Assembly: GCF_001708965.1 (NCBI RefSeq)
Contig: NZ_LVJW01000006.1
Coordinates: 496,001-560,000, forward strand
DNA: 64,000 nucleotides
Direction: 5' to 3'
From: Candidatus Thiodiazotropha endoloripes
GTDB lineage: Bacteria; Pseudomonadota; Gammaproteobacteria; Chromatiales; Chromatiaceae
Below the pieces are notes generated by a model. That model ran no database searches, was not told where the DNA came from, and saw only the letters and a list, made by a program, of their open reading frames with translations. A program made the translations under genes and the position numbers. Positions 105 to 10,683 of the stretch are shown piece by piece (within the stretch, counting starts at the first letter, position 1; each line of letters starts with the position of its first letter).

Positions 105-995
105 TCATGACTCCTTGACCGTATCGGCGTTCTTATCCAGATCGACCACAATGGCAGCACTCTCCACCGGGCAGATCATCTCGCAGACACCACATCCGAC
201 ACACCCTTCCTGCACCACTGGTTTCATACGCACTACCCCATCCCCCAACTCAACCGGTTCAAGTGTAATGGCATGTTTTGGCGGACAGGCATTGCCTATC
301 TGTTGTGCCACCCGGGCAACCGGTTGGTCTGTTTTTTCTGATTCCGCTGCTTCGCATTGGGTGATTCGAATCTCGATCGGACATTGACGCACACACAGAT
401 CGCATATCTCAAGATCATAGGGGTGGTCTGAAACCGGTATGGGGTTCCACCGATCGACCTCTTCATATCGCAACAATCCCCGGTAGTCTGCACCTCGCGC
501 CTGCCCCTTGAAGCCCTTCCCCTGCATTGCCAAACAGGCCTTGGGCCTCGCAAGCCGGGCAAAACCCATACGCGTATCGGCTGGATAATCCAGATCATGG
601 GTCAGTGCACCGGTTGGACAGGCCAATACGCACTGCAGACCGTCACAAGAGAAGTCACAGGCCTGCTCACGGGCATCGATATAGGGCACACCGATACCGA
701 ATCCATCCAGCAGATCAGCCAGTTTAATCGCCTCCACAGGACAGACCTGAACACACTGACCACACTTGATACACGAAGCATAGAACTGCTGCTCATCTTG
801 CGGCGTCTTAAGTGCACCGGGGGGACGCAGGCGTAATGAGGTGCCTTGCAACACAGGAACATAACCCAGCATGGAGGCACCAATCATACCGGCAGCCAAT
901 ACTGAGGAGCGTAAAAACTCCCGACGACTCTGTGCTTTGCGCTTTGGTGTCAGCGTAGGCTTTTTTCTCTTTACGGATTGCTTGTTGTCACTCAT
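105..995 (-). CDS. nosG: NosG/NapG-like periplasmic 4x[4Fe-4S] ferredoxin
   Basis: Predicted exported iron-sulfur protein that would work with NosH as a quinol dehydrogenase feeding periplasmic nitrous oxide reduction. The N-terminus carries a twin-arginine signal (SRREFLRSS followed by a hydrophobic stretch). Four cysteine clusters follow: CIKCGQCVQVCP, a CDGLQCVLACP type, CDLCVRQCP and CVGCGVCEMICP, matching NapG-family ferredoxins. The start chosen is the ATG at 995, preceded by AGAGAA about eight bases upstream. A TTG at 1013 would add six residues and overlap the nosD stop but lacks a ribosome binding site. The gene lies 14 bp after nosD and just before nosH. NapG itself is an alternative name, but no napA, napB or napC is visible and the nosD/nosZ context favours NosG. 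Confidence 0.85.
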   Translation of the reverse strand: MSDNKQSVKRKKPTLTPKRKAQSRREFLRSSVLAAGMIGASMLGYVPVLQGTSLRLRPPGALKTPQDEQQFYASCIKCGQCVQVCPVEAIKLADLLDGFGIGVPYIDAREQACDFSCDGLQCVLACPTGALTHDLDYPADTRMGFARLARPKACLAMQGKGFKGQARGADYRGLLRYEEVDRWNPIPVSDHPYDLEICDLCVRQCPIEIRITQCEAAESEKTDQPVARVAQQIGNACPPKHAITLEPVELGDGVVRMKPVVQEGCVGCGVCEMICPVESAAIVVDLDKNADTVKES

Positions 996-1009
996 GTCGT
1001 TTTTCTCTT

Positions 1010-2452
1010 TCAACGCCCGAGCGACTCGCGCAGAGCACGATAGGCATCGTATGTCTCTTCCGTATCGGCTTGAATCTCTGTTTCATTGACAACCGGAGTG
1101 ACTTGATCTGGTTCATCAACACTCGCCACCTGTTCTGCCAGGTCAGACGACATCATCGGTTGCTCGTCACGCACCAGCATATTGGGTTGAGTAAACGGCG
1201 CCAGACGTTCGAGAAAATCCATCACTTCAAGAACCGGGGAACCTTTGAAAAAACGGGCTGAGGGTACGTCCATCCAGATTCGATCGGCATAACTGAAAAG
1301 TTCATAAGGCTTGTCACCGACCTGATCACGATTCTGGTCAAAACCCTCATAGTCATCCCAGTAGTTTCCCTGCCACAGATTACGGTTGGCTGTTTTACCA
1401 CCACCAGAGACAGCGACTTGAGTAATGTTACCTTTAAAGCGATTGTTTTTCAGAGTATTGCCGGTCCAGTCGTTAAGGAAGAGAACCCCAATACCACTGT
1501 AGGCGACCAGATTGTTTTCAAAACGATTCACGGTATCGGGTTGGTAGGGAGAGACATCCAGGTAGAGCCCTGTGGCGCAATAGAGTATCTGATTACCTGT
1601 CACCACCACATCCGAGGTCTCCTTGAAACCGATACCCATGCCGGTGGCGCCGGTTGCATGGGCAATATAGTTGTTCTTCAGGTGTACTCCATCGCTGTAC
1701 ATCACAAAGATACCGACAGAGTTATCCTCATAGTGATTACCAACAACTTCATTATATTGAGCATACATGAAGTGCAGGGAGTAACGACCACCTCGGGCGT
1801 CGTTCCGCGCAATCAGGTTATCCCTTGAGTACCAAACCACCATATCACGTGAATCCCTAATGATATTGTCTGTGATCTTGTTATCAAAGCTGTACCAAAG
1901 TCGAATCGCATCACCCCTGATACCTAAATCGAAGGGCTTTGATGAAATTCGATTGGCACGTACGATATTGTTTTTAGATTGCTGCAGATCTACGCCGAAC
2001 AAACAGTTATCGATCACATTATCCTTGATCACATTGAAATCGCCGCGCACCTGCACACCCGAATCGATTGTGTTATGCGACTCACCGGAGTTGGTTAAAT
2101 GTAGGTTCTTTATGGTTGCGCCATCCGTATCCAGAACAACCACCGAACCCTTTCCACCCGCATCGATGGTAACCTTCCCCTGTCCATCCACCGTAATTGC
2201 ATCGCTTATGGTAACCGGACCAGCGTAAGTTCCAGGAGGCGGAATGAGAATACCACCGGGCTCGGTATTATCGACAAGCGTTTGAAAAGACGGATAGGGT
2301 TCTGTTGACGCAAAAGCATAAGACACAGTTATAGACAACAGCAGCAGTAACGCTACCGACAAGAGGGCCTGTCTGTCCACTGCATTTACAACAACCAATT
2401 TACCACTCTCAATTGGTTTATTGTAAAAAGTGATCTTCAATTTCAGGTTCAT
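1010..2452 (-). CDS. nosD: NosD, periplasmic copper-site maturation protein of nitrous oxide reductase
   Basis: NosD is required with NosF and NosY (an ABC transporter, not in this window) for building the CuZ site of NosZ. The 480-residue product has a hydrophobic export segment at about residues 28-47 ending in AFA, then a long run of short parallel beta-helix (CASH/NosD-type) repeats rich in NxI, GxxL and NxxxGI patterns to about residue 380. The tail is acidic and variable. The roughly 27 residues before the hydrophobic segment are long for a signal peptide, so a start inside the frame (a GTG among the valines near residues 19-21) is possible; no strong ribosome binding site precedes the ATG. 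It lies between the NosB-like gene and nosG, all on one strand with short gaps, so probably one transcript. Confidence 0.9.
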   Translation of the reverse strand: MNLKLKITFYNKPIESGKLVVVNAVDRQALLSVALLLLLSITVSYAFASTEPYPSFQTLVDNTEPGGILIPPPGTYAGPVTISDAITVDGQGKVTIDAGGKGSVVVLDTDGATIKNLHLTNSGESHNTIDSGVQVRGDFNVIKDNVIDNCLFGVDLQQSKNNIVRANRISSKPFDLGIRGDAIRLWYSFDNKITDNIIRDSRDMVVWYSRDNLIARNDARGGRYSLHFMYAQYNEVVGNHYEDNSVGIFVMYSDGVHLKNNYIAHATGATGMGIGFKETSDVVVTGNQILYCATGLYLDVSPYQPDTVNRFENNLVAYSGIGVLFLNDWTGNTLKNNRFKGNITQVAVSGGGKTANRNLWQGNYWDDYEGFDQNRDQVGDKPYELFSYADRIWMDVPSARFFKGSPVLEVMDFLERLAPFTQPNMLVRDEQPMMSSDLAEQVASVDEPDQVTPVVNETEIQADTEETYDAYRALRESLGR

Positions 2453-2503
2453 GAGTTAGCCAATAGAGACCACATCAATTCACACTTCAAATCGTGATTA
2501 AGA

Positions 2504-3691
2504 CTATTCCTGTTTCTGTTTGAACTGCTTAAATCGAATCAATGCCGCTGCTGCCAGAATCAAAGAGGACAATACCATCAGACCAAATCCCTTGTAGGGA
2601 TAGGAGTGAGTTGTAAACTGCGCAACCTTGCCGTCACCGAAAACCGTTGGCATAAACGGTTTTACGGAAAACGCCCCCATATCATTGAGGGTATGTCCGT
2701 ACCACCAGAGCCAGGCTGAGTAGTCTATGACAAAAATAACCGGTAGAGCGATTGGCACCAACACCAACAGCCAGTAAAAAAGTCCACCATTCTTTCGTGC
2801 ACCGAACAGCAACAGAACCATGGCGCCCAACAAGCCGATAAAAACGACATGGATTGCCAGCTTGAGATTCTTCACCATCGGCACTATCTCTTCCTGGTTG
2901 TTAAAATAACGACCAAGACTCTTCGCATAATGCCAGGACATGACTTGGAAGGCACTACCATTCCAGGGCGCCATCTGATCGGATTTTACCTGATCAATAT
3001 CATAGGTCAGTTTGAGCTGCTCGATGAGATGAGATTTTTTTACCTCACCCTCTTTTGCCTGCTCCCGTTTCGCCTTTTCAACCTGTGATGGCAGGATCAC
3101 CTCAACACCCGACTCCTCCAGAGAATCCTTGAGCACACCGGTAATACCACCAATTACGATTTCAGGCTCACTGCTTTCCGAAGTCGCCTCCTGATCGAGC
3201 GATGTCACCAGAGCACTGACATAACCGGTATTCAACAGCTTGAATCCACCATCGCCATACAACGCAAACCCCATCCATACCGCGATAACGGTAAATCCGC
3301 CACCTAGAATCATAATCCTCAGTTTCGGCTTGATACACACAAAACCCAATAACATGACACCCATGAATACCATCAGGAACTGACCGAAACCTCGCTCGAC
3401 AGGCCCACCTGCAGCGATCGGATACATACCGACATAGTGGTTGATGGTGTCCATCTCATGCACACAGTCCAACGCCTCATCCTCAGCGATCTCCGCTTTT
3501 TCCTGTTTCTCACAACCGTTGAATACACCATTCATATGAAAGTGAATTCTTACACCATCGGGAAAGGATTCAGCTGGATAATTTGGTGCAGTCAATGAAA
3601 CCCACCATATCGGTGTATAGAATATGACAGTCAGTAGCCCCAATGCGGCCAGGGTGAGCACGGCTACTTGAAGCGTTTGCTTAGACGGCAT
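2504..3691 (-). CDS. NosB-like polytopic membrane protein of the nos cluster
   Basis: A 395-residue integral membrane protein with about six hydrophobic spans: roughly residues 7-31, 105-122, 126-147, 278-297, 305-327 and 370-388. A periplasmic segment after span 1 contains HFHMNGVFNGC and a second Cys (LDCVHEMD), candidates for metal or heme contact or a disulfide. The long loop between spans 3 and 4 includes a Lys/Glu-rich stretch. Its place between the nos cytochromes and nosD matches the family called NosB in clade II clusters such as that of Wolinella succinogenes; the molecular function is not established. The assignment rests on context and topology rather than on a recognised motif. 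Confidence 0.65.
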   Translation of the reverse strand: MPSKQTLQVAVLTLAALGLLTVIFYTPIWWVSLTAPNYPAESFPDGVRIHFHMNGVFNGCEKQEKAEIAEDEALDCVHEMDTINHYVGMYPIAAGGPVERGFGQFLMVFMGVMLLGFVCIKPKLRIMILGGGFTVIAVWMGFALYGDGGFKLLNTGYVSALVTSLDQEATSESSEPEIVIGGITGVLKDSLEESGVEVILPSQVEKAKREQAKEGEVKKSHLIEQLKLTYDIDQVKSDQMAPWNGSAFQVMSWHYAKSLGRYFNNQEEIVPMVKNLKLAIHVVFIGLLGAMVLLLFGARKNGGLFYWLLVLVPIALPVIFVIDYSAWLWWYGHTLNDMGAFSVKPFMPTVFGDGKVAQFTTHSYPYKGFGLMVLSSLILAAAALIRFKQFKQKQE

Positions 3692-3867
3692 GATGATTCT
3701 CTTGAAATGAAGTAAACAGGCTTGAGTGGCGTATCCATTCAGGCATCTTACGGGTTGGATCGAGGACCCAACCTATCTGCTGCTTGCTACCACACTCCAG
3801 AGCACAGAGATTGTCAAAAGGGAGAAAAACCTGGCTCAGGGTGCGAAGCAGAGCAACGATCAATGCA

Positions 3868-4617
3868 CTAGTCGTAGTCAGGGTTCTGCCAATCCTTGGA
3901 AGGTGCAAGCAACTCCTTGGGCACTTGCATACGCGAGACATAGTTAATAACCATTTGCATATCCTTGTCGGAGAAGTTCTTGATCTGCTCTACCATCTCC
4001 GGGTTTGCATTGCGACGCTTGCCGTCACGAATCCACTCAAACTGACGCAGCATGTAGGCATAGTGTTGACCATGGATCTTCGGATAGAACTTTTCATCGT
4101 CACCTTCACCATTCGCGCCATGACACTGAGTACAGTTGTCATCATACAGCTTCTTGCCTTCAGTGAACTCAGGGAACAACTGATTCCATGGCCCCTTACC
4201 ATTATCCGGATTCATCGGTAACTTGGCGATGTATGCGGTAACATCGGCAACCAGTTGTGCGGGTTTGATCTCACCGGCATGATATCCTGAGGCAGCCATA
4301 ATCTGATCATCCAAAGCGAATGGATACATGGTGGGATTATCCCGGTTCTGTGCCCGGATATCCGCCAGCTGTTTGATCAAGACGTTACGATGCTGCCCGG
4401 CGAGTTGAGGGAAGGTTCCATCCGAAAGCCCCCAGCCTTCCAACAAGTGGCAGGCAGAGCAGACTTCATAAACGGCAATTCCCCGTTCCCGGTCAGGGGT
4501 CAGCAACATGGCTTCGTCTTTTTCGCCACCAGCCTCATTCCATCCAGCACCAGCACCGCCACAAGCAAGTAGACCCAATGCTATGGTCACTGATTTGATT
4601 ATCGGATTAACATTCAT
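3868..4617 (-). CDS. Diheme c-type cytochrome, probable lipoprotein, nos-associated
   Basis: A 249-residue cytochrome c with two heme-binding motifs, CSACH (Cys53-His57) and CTQCH (Cys162-His166), each in its own cytochrome c class I-like domain. The N-terminal sequence ALGLLAC places a lipobox-type cysteine at residue 19, so the protein may be lipid-anchored on the periplasmic side. The likely role is electron transfer from the NosGH quinol dehydrogenase to NosZ, like the NosC cytochromes of clade II clusters. It has its own perfect FNR-type box about 130 bp upstream of the start, suggesting separate induction as well as readthrough from nosZ. A cytochrome c4-type carrier for another oxidase is the alternative. 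Confidence 0.85.
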   Translation of the reverse strand: MNVNPIIKSVTIALGLLACGGAGAGWNEAGGEKDEAMLLTPDRERGIAVYEVCSACHLLEGWGLSDGTFPQLAGQHRNVLIKQLADIRAQNRDNPTMYPFALDDQIMAASGYHAGEIKPAQLVADVTAYIAKLPMNPDNGKGPWNQLFPEFTEGKKLYDDNCTQCHGANGEGDDEKFYPKIHGQHYAYMLRQFEWIRDGKRRNANPEMVEQIKNFSDKDMQMVINYVSRMQVPKELLAPSKDWQNPDYD

Positions 4618-4740
4618 GATTCATTTCTCCACTCCCCTGTGATGCAAGGGGATCATTTAGCTTCTTAGCCTGGCGCCAATACGTAAATAATATTGTTTCA
4701 AGAACTGTTCACAGTGTGCCACGGGGTATATTAGATAACT

Positions 4741-4754
4741 TTGATATACATCAA
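4741..4754. promoter_or_regulatory. Perfect FNR/Dnr-type box upstream of the diheme cytochrome
   Basis: The sequence TTGATATACATCAA matches the consensus TTGAT-N4-ATCAA at all ten defined positions. It lies in the 173-bp spacer between the two cytochrome genes, centred about 131 bp before the start codon of the diheme cytochrome on the minus strand. Regulation by FNR, Anr or Dnr is inferred from the match and the respiratory context. Confidence 0.75.
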
Positions 4755-4790
4755 ACTGGATACCCCGATTACCGCTTCTAAGTGGCCCTT

Positions 4791-5114
4791 TCAAAGCGTG
4801 CTCAACCAATCGGCAATGGCACGCATCTCCTCGTCATTGACCAATCCCATTACACCTTTCATGGCGGCTGATTGACCATTACTGCGGACGCCTGACTTGA
4901 TATCTTTCATCTGATTGTAGGCGTAGTCTGCGTTTTGACCCGCAAGCTTTGGATAGATCGGCATAATCGGAGTTTGTGCATCTTTACCATGACATGACCA
5001 GCATGTTTTGGTTTTATAGAGCTCTGCGCCATCAGCGGCTTGAGCATTCGTGGTAACAGCCGATACCAGCAACAGTGCAGTTCCGACAAAAAAGAGCTTT
5101 GAAATTTTCAACAT
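4791..5114 (-). CDS. Small monoheme c-type cytochrome, nos-associated
   Basis: A 107-residue periplasmic cytochrome c. A Sec signal peptide (KLFFVGTALLLVSAVTTNAQA) is cleaved near residue 26. One heme motif, CWSCH (Cys38-His42), follows, and methionines near residues 80-90 (MKGVMGLV) can supply the sixth ligand. This size and layout fit the monoheme NosC1-type cytochromes of clade II clusters that deliver electrons to NosZ. It sits directly downstream of nosZ, separated by a 182-bp spacer with a hairpin that may lower its expression relative to nosZ. Confidence 0.87.
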   Translation of the reverse strand: MLKISKLFFVGTALLLVSAVTTNAQAADGAELYKTKTCWSCHGKDAQTPIMPIYPKLAGQNADYAYNQMKDIKSGVRSNGQSAAMKGVMGLVNDEEMRAIADWLSTL

Positions 5115-5296: not shown

Positions 5297-7594
5297 TTAT
5301 TTGACCTTTTTAGCTCCATGCTCTTCCAGGAAGGTCTTTGCGCGTAACCCAAGATCAGCCGTTTTCACTTGATATTGCCACCATTGACCTGCCCACAGGG
5401 TGGCGTTCTGGTAGTCACCCTTCGCAGCGAAACCTTCAGACTTTTTCTTGGCCTCTTCTGCAAAACCCAGCTGGTCTGTTGCATCTTCCACCAAGGCTAC
5501 GACTTCAGGGAAGTCTTTGTAGTTATGACTGGTGATGAAGCCGACAACGGAATCGATAACAGCTTGAGTATCAATATTGGTCTTCACCTGTTTCTCATAG
5601 TCAGCCTGGGTATACTTGGTACCTTCCTGTATTTCGGTTGTGGTGGCCACGTACCCTTTTGGTTTGACTAACAGGTAACCCTGCATTTCCAGATGCAAGG
5701 CGGAGCAGAACTCGGTGCAGTAGTAGGGATAGACACCGGCTTTATCCGCTTTGAATGTAGCCGAGACTGTCTTACCAGGTTCGATCGAGAGATTTACATT
5801 CTGACCGTAGAGTGCAAATCCATGGGTCTCATCTTGGGCGCGTTCCAGATTGGTAAGATGAATGGATACCGTTTCACCCTCTTCCACTTCGATGATTTCC
5901 GGAGTGATATGGGAGCGGATCACTGTACCGTAGACATGTACGATACCATCATCACCTCGTACAACCTTCTCACGTCCGGCTCGTGTCTTGTAGGGTGACT
6001 TCTTGTCAGAACGACTGTCCCAACCAGACTTATAGCGTACAGCGGGCTTCAGTTTGTCTGCTTTGATGGCGACCACATAGTGTGGTTCACCCAAAGGTAA
6101 CGGCATATCGTAGAGCAACTGCATCTTGTCACCGCTGATATCGATCAACTGATGATTCTGCGGGTGCAATGGGCCGACCGGATTGAAGCGATCAATTGCA
6201 AGTTTATTCAATGAAACAAGATATTTACCATCCGGTGATACGGAATCACCCTCCATCGCAACCAGATGACCGATATTGTAGTGGATATGCAATTGATCCA
6301 GCACCTTACCTTCACAATAGTCCCACTTGGTTACCATTGAGTCGACATAGATCGAGGTATAGACCACACACTCCTTGGCATCGTATTGGGTATGCAGAGG
6401 ACCAAGCCCTACCTGAACCTGAGTATGCAATGCATCTTTCATTGCTATGATCGGGATACCATAGGGATCCTTACCTTCAAACTTCTTCTCTTTAATCGCT
6501 TTTTGTATCTTCTCCCAGCTGTAGACCCAGGCATGGCTGTCCAGCTTACCGGAGACGATGATATGAGTGCCGTCCGGACTGACGTCAACACCATGCGGAC
6601 TTTTTGGTTCTGGAATCAGATAGAGCAGACCTTCTTTGACAGCCTGCTCCATTGGGATCATGTAAGCACCCTTGGACTTCTTTACTTTGCCGGCAGCAAC
6701 CAGCTCGGCAGCTTTTTTCCAGTTTGTCACATGCAGAAAATCGGTATCCTTTTGTGAACAGCCTGCTTCAAAAGGAGGGCGTCCACGCTCGATACCACCG
6801 ACATATCTTTCAGAACAGAAAGAGTTTGTGAAACCCCAACCCATGGAAGGCCCCTTGCCCGCATCGGAAAGGTCTTGACTATAGGGAGGCAATTCAAAGG
6901 TGAACGACTGCGAAGGATCCAGGCGACCCTTTTTATCGTCAAACTTCCAGTAGGTTACTGCGCCACGGTATTTATCGTTAAACTCCTCCAGCGGTACAAA
7001 TTCATCTTCAAACGGTGCTGCATACTGGGAAGCTTCCATCACATATTCGGTATTCGGTGTAACAAAAGCACCACCATGTTCCGATTTCATGAATGGATTG
7101 ACCACGATCTGTTTGGTCTCGAAATCGTGCAGATCGATAACCGCCATACGTGGGTTGGCTTTATCATTGATAAACAGATATCGGCCGTTGTATTCCCCAT
7201 TGGTCTCAGAGAACGCCGGATGGTGGGTATCGCCGTAGTTGATATCCTTACCCTGTATTCTACCTTGGGCCAGTACCGCTTTTGACTCATCATCAAACCC
7301 GTAACCCTGCCAGGGTTCAGGTGTGAAAACAGCAATATATTTCAGTATCCTCATCGATGGGATACCGTATACGATGACCTGTCCGCTCTGCCCTCCGGAG
7401 CTGAAAGCCAGGTATTCGTCACGCCCTCCCGTTGGCGTATAGGTTTTCGCTGCCGCTAGCAGATCCTTCTGTGATAGTCCACGCGCTTTCATGACATCTT
7501 CAAGCGCCGACTGGGACCATGCATTGGTTGCAGCTGTCAAGCCAATCCCCAAACCTATGCCCAATGCGGATATACGTTTCAAACTATTGTTCAT
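5297..7594 (-). CDS. nosZ: Nitrous oxide reductase, Sec-exported clade II type
   Basis: Periplasmic copper enzyme that reduces N2O to N2. The 765-residue product starts with an ordinary Sec-type signal peptide (NSLKRISALGIGLGIGLTAA...AWS) with no twin arginine, a hallmark of the atypical (clade II) enzymes. The beta-propeller carries the DTHHPAFSETNGEY motif (Asp122, His124, His125) expected of CuZ ligation. The cupredoxin domain has the CuA motif CTEFCSALHLEM (Cys626, Cys630, His634, Met637). About 105 residues follow the CuA domain (from GYVATTTEIQ onward). They look helical and contain no CXXCH, unlike the cytochrome c tail of the epsilonproteobacterial enzyme. A near-perfect FNR-type box lies 87 bp upstream. 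First gene of the nos transcript. Confidence 0.97.
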   Translation of the reverse strand: MNNSLKRISALGIGLGIGLTAATNAWSQSALEDVMKARGLSQKDLLAAAKTYTPTGGRDEYLAFSSGGQSGQVIVYGIPSMRILKYIAVFTPEPWQGYGFDDESKAVLAQGRIQGKDINYGDTHHPAFSETNGEYNGRYLFINDKANPRMAVIDLHDFETKQIVVNPFMKSEHGGAFVTPNTEYVMEASQYAAPFEDEFVPLEEFNDKYRGAVTYWKFDDKKGRLDPSQSFTFELPPYSQDLSDAGKGPSMGWGFTNSFCSERYVGGIERGRPPFEAGCSQKDTDFLHVTNWKKAAELVAAGKVKKSKGAYMIPMEQAVKEGLLYLIPEPKSPHGVDVSPDGTHIIVSGKLDSHAWVYSWEKIQKAIKEKKFEGKDPYGIPIIAMKDALHTQVQVGLGPLHTQYDAKECVVYTSIYVDSMVTKWDYCEGKVLDQLHIHYNIGHLVAMEGDSVSPDGKYLVSLNKLAIDRFNPVGPLHPQNHQLIDISGDKMQLLYDMPLPLGEPHYVVAIKADKLKPAVRYKSGWDSRSDKKSPYKTRAGREKVVRGDDGIVHVYGTVIRSHITPEIIEVEEGETVSIHLTNLERAQDETHGFALYGQNVNLSIEPGKTVSATFKADKAGVYPYYCTEFCSALHLEMQGYLLVKPKGYVATTTEIQEGTKYTQADYEKQVKTNIDTQAVIDSVVGFITSHNYKDFPEVVALVEDATDQLGFAEEAKKKSEGFAAKGDYQNATLWAGQWWQYQVKTADLGLRAKTFLEEHGAKKVK

Positions 7595-7681: not shown

Positions 7682-7695
7682 TTGATTTAAGTCAA
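7682..7695. promoter_or_regulatory. FNR/Dnr-type box upstream of nosZ
   Basis: Read on the minus strand this is TTGACTTAAATCAA, matching TTGAT-N4-ATCAA at nine of ten positions. The centre is about 94 bp before the nosZ ATG. A class II site at -41.5 would put transcription start near 7647, with AT-rich sequence (GAATATCT) suitable as a -10 region. Oxygen- or NO-responsive control is inferred. Confidence 0.72.
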
Positions 7696-7872: not shown

Positions 7873-9318
7873 TTACTCAAGCAGCCGGTCAAGTTTGGAT
7901 GCAAGTACCTGAGGAGAGATTCCATGTGCGAATTTATTAATGAACCGGCCACTCGGATCGAGCAGATAGAGACTGGCAGTATGATCCATCAGATAGAGAT
8001 CAGGATCGTCAGATGCCTCATCCACGCGCTCGAATCTGGCTTTGAACTGACCGGCAACCCGTTCAATCATCGCTTCAGATCCTGTAACACCAATCAGACG
8101 TTCGTCGTAATACTCGACATACTTCTTCATTACCGCAACACTATCCCGCTGCGGATCAATCGTAATGAAGTAGGGTTGAAACTGGGTTGCTTTGTCACCC
8201 AGTTCATTCAGCGCCTGAAACATGATCTGCAGAGAGGTTGGACAGATATCCGGGCAGTAGGTATAACCAAAGTAGACAATTGCAAACTTACCCAGCATGG
8301 TTTCATTGCTCACCAGTCGGCCCAGATGGTCAGTTAACAAAAACGTCCCTTTACCAATACCCTCGGCGGCAACCAATTTATCCTGCTGAGCAGCACTCCT
8401 GGCCTTTCTCGCCTGCACCATATCAGCATTCAGGCAACGCTTTATCTCATCCGTATTATGCGCCATGAGTTCAAAGTAGAGATCAGGACCAGGTGACAGT
8501 CCAATGCCGAAACTATTCAAAACACCCTGATTGATATCGGTCTCCTGAGTCAATAGAGCAAGATGCTGTGTTGGGAAACCACGCTCAGATAACAGGCACA
8601 CAGCTTCACCGGAAGCGATCCTCTCACGTATCCGCAACAATCCTCTGGCGTCTGTCTGTTGTGTCGGCGAACCGCTCAGGTGATCAAGCACTTTGAGGGC
8701 GTAGGCCTGTTCAAAATATTGCAGGGTGTCATGATACTGAATACCCAGCCCCGCTTTCATTCCCCGATAACCATACTCATATTCACGGTCGATGCGCGCC
8801 AAACGGGCCAGCACGGTCTGCCGGTTACGTTCATACAGATGTGTACGTTTCGTATCCATTTGCTGCAGGATAAGTGTCAGATCATCAAGCATAATCATCA
8901 GATTACGATTATCCAGCCAAAAGTGTGGATCGCGCTGTTGTTGCTGATGTCGGGATGGCAACACCTTCAACCCGGAATGGGACAACAACTCAATCACCTC
9001 AGTATCTTTCCCCAGCTCTTCTATCGACTTTGCAAGTGAAGATTCCAATTCCGAACCGACCCAGAACAGCAGATCGGCTTGCTGCATGCGCTGCCACTGT
9101 TCAGGTGAAGGTGTAAACTGATGGGGCAATTGGCTATCGTCGATCAACAGTTCAGGCTCACCAATCCCTAACATCAGGCCTGACAGAATGGAATGCAGTG
9201 GCTTGATCGTTACCACAACCCGAAACTCACCCTCGGCTTCTGTCCCATTACCCACCAGCGGCCACAACCAGGCAGAAAGCATCAACAGGATCAGGCCATA
9301 TTTTCTGTTATTGCTCAT
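7873..9318 (-). CDS. ZnuA-like metal-binding protein fused to a SCO1/SenC copper chaperone domain
   Basis: One uninterrupted 481-residue frame joins two periplasmic metal proteins. After an export signal (hydrophobic residues 8-22), residues about 30-300 resemble the cluster A-I solute-binding proteins for Zn/Mn. Three metal-ligand histidines are in place: His66 (LPHQFTPSPEQ), His132 (DPHFWL) and His196 (YHDTLQYFEQ). The usual fourth carboxylate position appears as Asn268, and the His-rich loop is replaced by a short Gln run. Residues about 318-481 form a SCO domain with the copper-binding pair Cys355-x3-Cys359 (TYCPDICP) and His446 (LMDHTASLYL). The start overlaps the stop of the small upstream gene (ATGA), and an FNR box precedes that unit. 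A role in copper delivery to NosZ or an oxidase is inference. The nearest single-domain alternatives would be ZnuA or SenC alone. Confidence 0.88.
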   Translation of the reverse strand: MSNNRKYGLILLMLSAWLWPLVGNGTEAEGEFRVVVTIKPLHSILSGLMLGIGEPELLIDDSQLPHQFTPSPEQWQRMQQADLLFWVGSELESSLAKSIEELGKDTEVIELLSHSGLKVLPSRHQQQQRDPHFWLDNRNLMIMLDDLTLILQQMDTKRTHLYERNRQTVLARLARIDREYEYGYRGMKAGLGIQYHDTLQYFEQAYALKVLDHLSGSPTQQTDARGLLRIRERIASGEAVCLLSERGFPTQHLALLTQETDINQGVLNSFGIGLSPGPDLYFELMAHNTDEIKRCLNADMVQARKARSAAQQDKLVAAEGIGKGTFLLTDHLGRLVSNETMLGKFAIVYFGYTYCPDICPTSLQIMFQALNELGDKATQFQPYFITIDPQRDSVAVMKKYVEYYDERLIGVTGSEAMIERVAGQFKARFERVDEASDDPDLYLMDHTASLYLLDPSGRFINKFAHGISPQVLASKLDRLLE

Positions 9319-9656
9319 GGCCTCTGATACACCGCATTCAATTTTTCAATCGCCAGATCAACCTGTTGCTTCAATCTATCGGTTGAGGGACAAACCCGAT
9401 TGTCATTGATGAACGCCATAAACGATTTATTGGTCTGATAATCAAACAGTTCTCCCAATTGGCGTTGTTTGGGTAGCGTGTTCACCAAGACCTGTTTGAT
9501 CCTTTGTGTCTGATCAACTCTTCCACACTGCAGGGCAACACCATTCAGCGAACCAAGCGCACGAATGGCTGCTAACTGATCATCGCTTGCAGCTTCCGCT
9601 CGAACCACGCCGAACAGGATTGACAACAGCAACAGGATTCGTGGAATCATGAGCAC
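9315..9656 (-). CDS. Small secreted protein of unknown function, first gene of the ZnuA-SCO unit
   Basis: A 113-residue protein with a clear signal peptide (IPRILLLLSILFGVVRAEA) and a mostly helical mature part of about 90 residues. It contains two cysteines (ALQCGR and NRVCPS) that could form a disulfide or bind a metal. No known domain was recognised. It overlaps the ZnuA-SCO fusion gene by four bases, so the two are translationally coupled, and it is the first gene after a perfect FNR-type box. This suggests a periplasmic helper in metal or heme delivery during anaerobic respiration; that role is inferred from context only. Confidence 0.8.
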   Translation of the reverse strand: MLMIPRILLLLSILFGVVRAEAASDDQLAAIRALGSLNGVALQCGRVDQTQRIKQVLVNTLPKQRQLGELFDYQTNKSFMAFINDNRVCPSTDRLKQQVDLAIEKLNAVYQRP

Positions 9657-9817: not shown

Positions 9818-9831
9818 TTGATTGATATCAA
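9818..9831. promoter_or_regulatory. Perfect FNR/Dnr-type box upstream of the ZnuA-SCO unit
   Basis: TTGATTGATATCAA matches TTGAT-N4-ATCAA at all ten defined positions. It is centred about 168 bp before the start of the 113-residue protein on the minus strand and about 67 bp after the stop of the pentapeptide-repeat gene, so the leftward unit is the likely target. Confidence 0.72.
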
Positions 9832-9891: not shown

Positions 9892-10671
9892 TTAGTGATT
9901 ATCTGAAATCCCAGGAAAATCTCTCGCCACCCCTTTTGCCCCTGTCAGATCGACAGACTGAACCCGTGCATTGACAAACCGCGCTCCCTCAAGATTGGCC
10001 TCCCTGAACAGGGTCTCGGTCAAGGCCACGCCATTCAGCAGAGAGCCTGACAAGTCCGATTGGGAAAAATCCGCCTGCTCCAGGGCCGCACCGGTCAGTA
10101 CGACCTGGCGTAGACTTGTCCTCCTGAGGGTACTGCCAATGAGAACAGCCCGCATCATAAATGCGTGATCAAAAACACTATCATCCAACTGACTCTCCTC
10201 CATTGAGATATCCTTCATATTGGCGTTGGAAAAATTAGCGCCGCTTGCACTGGCCTCATTGATACTGGCACCAAATAGGTAGGCATTGGTGAAATTGCTT
10301 TGATTGAGAGAGCTTTCATCAAAATTAGTATGAAACAGATCCGCATCGGTAAAATCGGCGGCATTCGCCGCGCAACCAGAGAGCATTGCCCACTTTAAAT
10401 CCGCTTTCACCAGGATTGCCCGGGAAAGGTTACAATCGATCAGCCGGGCATTTTGAAAATTGACACCACTCAACCGACTACCCTGCAGGTCAACTCCATT
10501 GAGATCCCGACCGCTGAAATCACAGTGGGTATAGTCATGCCTGGATACCGGCGAGTCACAATCCCCGATCGGCATGGGCTGTGGAGGTGTCTTGCCTGAC
10601 GACAGTATCGGCATTGTCAATAAAAGTGAAAACACGATTTGTTTGATCACCTTTCCTCCGAGAGAAATCAT
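9892..10671 (-). CDS. Secreted pentapeptide-repeat protein
   Basis: A roughly 259-residue protein with an export signal (KQIVFSLLLTMPILSSG) and then about 35 consecutive five-residue repeats of the A(D/N)LxX type (for example FSGRDLNGVDLQGSRLSGVNF), from about residue 50 to the end. Such repeats fold as a right-handed quadrilateral beta-helix; they do not themselves indicate an activity. The mature N-terminus has two Cys residues (GDCDSP and THCDF) and more occur in the repeats. The start is uncertain: an ATG at 10671 has no well-spaced ribosome binding site, while a GTG at 10650 lies just after GGAGGA and leaves a typical signal peptide. The ORF extends to a TTG at 10683. It precedes the FNR-controlled unit on the same strand, but the 235-bp spacer suggests separate transcription. 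Confidence 0.85.
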   Translation of the reverse strand: MISLGGKVIKQIVFSLLLTMPILSSGKTPPQPMPIGDCDSPVSRHDYTHCDFSGRDLNGVDLQGSRLSGVNFQNARLIDCNLSRAILVKADLKWAMLSGCAANAADFTDADLFHTNFDESSLNQSNFTNAYLFGASINEASASGANFSNANMKDISMEESQLDDSVFDHAFMMRAVLIGSTLRRTSLRQVVLTGAALEQADFSQSDLSGSLLNGVALTETLFREANLEGARFVNARVQSVDLTGAKGVARDFPGISDNH

Positions 10672-10683
10672 CACCTGTAACAA

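Follow-up and report, generated by a model that had tools for sequence, protein, structure and literature searches.

The window analysed here, a 64,000-nucleotide stretch of the Candidatus Thiodiazotropha endoloripes genome, encodes on its minus strand a 481-residue protein in one open frame (7873..9318) that joins a ZnuA-like domain to an SCO1/SenC domain. Pfam assigns residues 34-295 (8434..9219, minus strand) to ZnuA (E 5.3e-42; 144.5 bits against a cut-off of 29) and residues 324-459 (7942..8349, minus strand) to SCO1-SenC (E 3.1e-45; 153.8 bits against a cut-off of 22.8); against the NCBIfam ZnuA equivalog, the protein scores 107.1 bits, under the cut-off of 268. An AlphaFold2 model built with 61 relatives in the alignment had a mean pLDDT of 89.7 and a pTM of 0.66, and Foldseek matched the two predicted halves to ZnuA (2osv, TMt 0.90) and ScoI (4wbj, TMt 0.88). 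Three histidines of the first half align with the ZnuA site, namely His66 (9121-9123), His132 (8923-8925) and His196 (8731-8733), and Cys355 (8254-8256), Cys359 (8242-8244) and His446 (7981-7983) of the second half align with the SCO copper site; all six codons are on the minus strand.

The gene directly upstream, p113 (9315..9656, minus strand), overlaps the fusion ORF by 4 bases and encodes a predicted helical protein of 113 residues with an N-terminal hydrophobic stretch and invariant Cys44 and Cys89. Upstream of p113 lies a gene for a pentapeptide-repeat protein, recognized by Pfam (9892..10683, minus strand). On the other side, nosZ (5297..7594, minus strand) begins 278 bases downstream of the fusion and encodes a clade II Sec-type nitrous oxide reductase (TIGR04246, 881.9 bits against a cut-off of 625) carrying CTEFCSALHLEM, which we take to be the CuA-type motif. 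The remaining nos cluster follows, with two cytochromes c and nosB-like, nosD and nosG-like genes (105..5114, minus strand) assigned from profile matches and sequence, and it extends out of the window on the left, where nosH-, nosF-, nosL- and nosY-like genes are found; the names nosB and nosF come from sequence and position only.

The sequence-only reading had reported a perfect FNR box here, and an FNR/Dnr-like box, TTGATTGATATCAA, indeed lies upstream of p113 at 9818..9831 as an exact match to TTGATNNNNATCAA, which we take to be the FNR consensus. A box with one mismatch is found upstream of nosZ (7682..7695), and the window holds 12 FNR-like matches with at most one mismatch, compared with 3.6 expected. 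A second exact TTGATNNNNATCAA box is located inside the nos cluster at 4741-4754, where it separates the genes of the two cytochromes c. Among the 72 of 77 p113 genes with at least 150 upstream bases, the box was exact in 10 stretches, and allowing one mismatch raised the count to 19; it is thus tied to some lineages.

The joining of two normally separate families is genuine, and neither a frameshift nor an assembly join accounts for it. A full-length fusion is present in 21 of 22 Ca. Thiodiazotropha genomes, the window's own included; the sole exception in the genus, G014, has neither the fusion nor nosZ. A scan of further named genomes with the patterns RDP[FHY]FWLD and YFEQAYAL gave 126 loci; the best 80 of them were retained, and these came from Thiodiazotropha, Sedimenticola, tubeworm symbionts, a Thioglobus, a Thiohalomonas MAG and others. 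The fused frame was open at 79 of these 80 loci (some ending at contig ends) and broken only at L165; the frame at L137 is intact. In a class-wide sample, scoring up to four candidates per genome, full-length fusions were found in 7 of 369 genomes, and a phylum sample of 398 genomes searched in the same way added two from another class, G521 and G539, the latter with a copy that ends with its contig. We rejected a plasmid-borne source, as none of the 508 matching plasmid records covered more than 80% of the query. No description of a ZnuA-like/SCO fusion was found among the literature candidates, judged in part from their titles and the starts of their abstracts.

The SCO half is uniform throughout this family. 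Cys355 and Cys359 are kept in all 82 rows that cover this part and His446 in 80 of 80, such that the Cys-x3-Cys pair and histidine pointed out in the window protein prove invariant. The window's own genome has at least four further SCO-type matches, and a different division of labour is therefore possible.

The same cannot be said of the ZnuA-like half. The sequence-only reading held that both halves keep their key residues, which is correct for the window's clade (6 of 83 family rows and 6 of 20 genus rows) but not for the family at large. Histidine at all three ZnuA ligand positions occurs only in the window protein and five close relatives; the full site is missing in 77 of the 83 rows, including 14 of 20 in the genus, mostly with tyrosine or phenylalanine instead. 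In an 80-row table that leaves out L137 and the frame-broken L165, position 66 is Tyr in 38 rows, Phe in 19 and His in 10; position 132 is Phe in 46, Tyr in 24 and His in 9; and position 196 is Tyr in 33, Phe in 26 and His in 19. Ordinary ZnuA proteins of the class, taken as the best ZnuA-like matches of the class search (16 of 18 aligned rows entered the tree set), keep all three histidines in 16 of 16 cases, and a ZnuA encoded elsewhere in the window's own genome has both the complete site and a His-rich loop. Unfused ZnuA-like relatives in G038 and G343 have a degenerate ligand site as well. By eye, a further ZnuA-family gene of the window's own genome (L197, C3:22242-22928), which adjoins a rhodanese-like ORF, also appears to lack the three histidines, and such loss is therefore not unique to the fusion family.

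The absence of the His-rich loop, proposed from the window protein, was confirmed in the sequence alignment. The acidic ligand is likewise absent, as had been claimed, but this is not diagnostic, since the residue before the first histidine is non-acidic in 18 ordinary ZnuA rows. A history in which the metal site was lost, and apparently came back in the window's clade, seems likelier than the changed metal preference suggested earlier. We saw no zinc importer genes (znuBC) alongside; the annotated neighbours, which do not include every ORF, are nos genes and the pentapeptide protein. Cys241 and Cys295, the only conserved cysteine pair of the ZnuA-like half, are invariant and common to ZnuA, and Glu181, Tyr184, Arg185, Gln204 and Ala207 are invariant in the fusion family (82 of 82) and not common to ZnuA. 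The dN/dS of the ZnuA part was 0.06-0.10 in the six of seven pairs that were computable, five of the six lying within the three-His clade and the single outside pair having saturated dS. The ZnuA-like half is thus under purifying selection, and its degeneration does not look like decay.

In a tree of 98 rows, the six-row three-His clade (support 100) is nested within the genus (19 rows, support 99). The three-His label requires two changes on this tree, a loss followed by a regain, and the same is true with the three ligand columns removed; the single ligand positions changed more often (5, 3 and 9 changes). As the three-His clade sits inside the genus, we favour regain of the site in the window's clade over its simple retention. 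Retention is nevertheless left standing by an AU test in which a tree placing all non-three-His rows on one side was not rejected (p 0.26), and for this reason regain is favoured but not proven. Gene conversion from a true ZnuA seems the less likely route to the site: the residues surrounding each histidine remain family-type, and point changes therefore fit better. Tyrosine and histidine codons are one base apart. The three-His site in the window's clade looks re-formed and constitutes a putative metal site.

The distribution of the module follows that of clade II nosZ. In the class sample, a clade II NosZ scored over the cut-off in 21 of 369 genomes, and all seven genomes with a full-length fusion were among them (7 of 21 NosZ-positive genomes versus 0 of 348 others; Fisher 6.7e-10, kinship ignored). 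The association extends to p113, which was found in 11 of the 369 genomes, 10 of them with clade II NosZ (Fisher 3.3e-13, kinship ignored). The eleventh, G232, carries p113 and a fusion start that ends at a contig end, together with a NosZ match of 473.9 bits, under the cut-off, in a genome that is 87% complete. Both fusion genomes from outside the class have NosZ over the cut-off. A NosZ search of further genomes took in 50 of the 80 loci; 42 of these 50 fusion-bearing genomes have a NosZ match, 39 over the cut-off, and the eight without a match are all titled MAG. Co-occurrence with clade II nosZ, the absence of which from other genomes would have spoken against the sequence-only reading, is thus found well beyond the window. 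Conversely, 14 of the 21 class genomes with clade II NosZ have no fusion, and the fusion is therefore not essential for NosZ.

The placement of the fusion next to nosZ, part of the same reading, holds for all 20 genus genomes in which both were found but not for every relative. At 39 of the best 80 of 126 loci, the examined flanks contain nos genes; in most of these cases nosZ directly follows the module, or the module closes the cluster at its far end, past nosY. No nos gene was seen in the examined flanks of the other 41, though many contigs are short. In both Sedimenticola and G024, genes of housekeeping type surround the module.

The overlapping 113-residue partner noted at the outset proved to be a nearly constant companion of the fusion. 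p113 is directly upstream at 77 of the 80 loci (best 80 of 126), the other three fusions beginning near a contig end. Its predicted structure is helical (pLDDT 91.8), with no sequence or fold match in the PDB and, for the window copy, no Pfam match; an assignment to DUF3218 was rejected as too weak, with two of 61 scanned members matching at a best E of 2.9e-4. In G343, p113 and SCO share one frame and a ZnuA-like gene is on a separate contig, and in G038 and G149 p113 adjoins an SCO gene with no ZnuA-like half beside them. These arrangements indicate that p113 goes with the SCO half. The p113-SCO fusion at L174 8377-9267, where the ZnuA-like gene is likewise encoded on a different contig, is found in a genus of which two more members were sampled, both with the ZnuA-SCO form.

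Genes for copper chaperones or thiol oxidoreductases adjoin the module at a few loci. SCO and PCuAC genes are directly upstream in L156 and L178, and a PCuAC gene in L144; L178 also has a DsbA-like gene. The order DsbB-DsbA-p113-fusion is found in L128 and in L203, which is from another class, and the unfused ZnuA-like gene of G038 adjoins DsbA-like and CcdA-like (DsbD_TM) genes. Such neighbours occur at 7 of 98 stretches, where the queries were drawn from these same loci, L128 and L176 are one place and one stretch carries an unfused gene.

We thus observe a conserved fusion in which the SCO site is invariant and the ZnuA site degenerate. Purifying selection acts on it, and the module is linked to nosZ and, in a few places, to PCuAC, SCO, Dsb or CcdA genes. 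With moderate confidence, we propose that the protein is an SCO-type copper/thiol chaperone for clade II NosZ, most likely for its CuA site, with a ZnuA-derived half that serves for docking or as a scaffold, and that it acts with p113. The SCO half would provide the working copper/thiol site in the periplasm, with clade II NosZ as its client. The N-terminal half would descend from a ZnuA-type zinc-binding ancestor recruited as a docking or scaffold domain, whose metal site is missing across most of the family; as the ZnuA site is lost in most relatives, the front half is probably a docking or scaffold domain and not a second metal carrier. The product of the overlapping neighbour gene, p113, may work together with the fusion.

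The CuZ site of NosZ is served by NosL. We regard CuA as the likeliest client: in P. denitrificans, SenC2 and PCuAC contribute to N2O reduction when copper is low, and, according to the portion of the report available, deletions of senC2 and pcuC lower this activity (PMC7558416). Two points, from the available part of another report, speak against a CuA client: in P. denitrificans, copper by itself is enough to reconstitute the CuA site, and under copper scarcity NosL may deliver metal to that site as well (PMC6530538).

Other readings of the module were weighed against this one. The window protein itself, with His66, His132 and His196 as well as the SCO site, suggests a relay in which copper or zinc is first bound by the ZnuA-like half and then handed over to the SCO half for NosZ, and the three histidines are present throughout its six-member clade. 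We consider such a relay improbable: the SCO half is unchanged whether the full three-His site is there or, as in 77 of 83 rows, missing, and the same genome encodes a separate ZnuA with three histidines and a His-rich loop. Movement of copper from domain to domain, raised by the sequence-only reading, hence finds no support as a general mechanism. Somewhat less improbable, although still unlikely, is that the ZnuA-like half docks a thiol oxidoreductase instead of NosZ and so keeps the SCO (or CuA) cysteines in the right redox state. The Dsb and CcdA neighbours of G038, L128, L203 and L178 are consistent with such a role, as is a TlpA-ScoI mixed disulfide structure among the Foldseek matches; these neighbours are few, however, even with the PCuAC cases counted among the 7 of 98 stretches, and the Cys241/Cys295 pair is one that ZnuA also has.

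The client could also be a different copper enzyme, such as a CuA-type cytochrome oxidase, with the nosZ link arising from a common anaerobic lifestyle. ScoI-like chaperones are described for cytochrome oxidase in the part of the source available (PMC7558416), 41 of the best 80 of 126 loci have no nos gene beside the module, and G232 lacks a NosZ over the cut-off. Against this, the full-length fusion is confined to NosZ-positive genomes in the class sample (7 of 21 versus 0 of 348), nos genes lie alongside at 39 of the 80 loci, and the one genus member without the fusion, G014, is also without nosZ, all of which makes an oxidase client very unlikely. Returning to the NosZ chaperone with a docking half, we tentatively extend it to a possible, though doubtful, history: a metal-binding fold may have lost its metal and become the metal-free docking partner of a NosZ copper chaperone, after which the three-His site may have been re-formed by point changes in one clam-symbiont clade. 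If true, a metal-binding front half would have been restored inside an existing chaperone.

The nearest known systems each share part of this architecture. SCO/SenC chaperones (ScoI, SenC2, human SCO1) have the same fold (4wbj, TMt 0.88), the CxxxC motif with a distal histidine and an expected CuA-type client, but here there is a ZnuA-derived N-terminal domain, a 113-residue partner gene and co-occurrence with clade II NosZ. ZnuA and other cluster A-I metal-binding proteins share the fold (2osv, TMt 0.90), the cysteine pair and many structural residues, whereas here 77 of 83 rows lack the full three-His site, there is no His-rich loop, no zinc importer genes were seen alongside and the domain is fused to SCO. 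Another Foldseek match, 7jj9, which we take to be AdcA with its ZnuA-like and ZinT-like domains, also combines a ZnuA-like domain with another domain for metal handling in one protein; its structure, unlike the case here, was solved zinc-bound, and its second domain is unrelated to SCO. The P. denitrificans senC2/pcuC/Pden_4445 system likewise includes an SCO-type protein that aids N2O reduction at low copper, and its PCuAC has counterparts adjoining our module at three loci; NosZ there is Tat-exported, however, and the available portion of the report mentions no ZnuA-like domain or p113 (PMC7558416). A B. azotoformans senC gene upstream of nosC3 similarly places SCO in a nos context, although no fusion is mentioned in the part of that source available (PMC3475470).

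The fusion, a conserved chaperone whose occurrence follows that of clade II nosZ, provides a concrete gene set for tests, together with its recruited ZnuA-type domain, mostly metal-free, and its unclassified partner; to our knowledge, little is known of how clade II organisms fill the CuA site. The reductase eliminates nitrous oxide, a strong greenhouse gas, and fails under copper shortage, as the available parts of two reports and general knowledge of the field have it (PMC7558416, PMC6530538). The fusion family also forms a natural series, with ligands present, partly lost and lost, in which to ask what a metal-binding fold does after metal loss.

Several minor observations concern the surroundings of the module. 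Beyond the window's left edge, the nosY-like gene is followed by one for a 175-residue protein without a Pfam match (L167 8308-8835), and cluster 35 proteins in L107, L120, L156, L163 and L168 occupy a similar place and look alike by eye. In the Lamellibrachia barhami symbiont (L105), the full NosZ match is closely followed, on its downstream side, by a second, partial one that covers model positions 348-578 (G393:C1:4062334-4063041). Finally, the pentapeptide-repeat protein looks secreted, and 21 of the best 80 of 126 loci encode a relative of it ahead of p113, in some cases separated from p113 by a gene; these loci belong to Thiodiazotropha and to certain other lineages.
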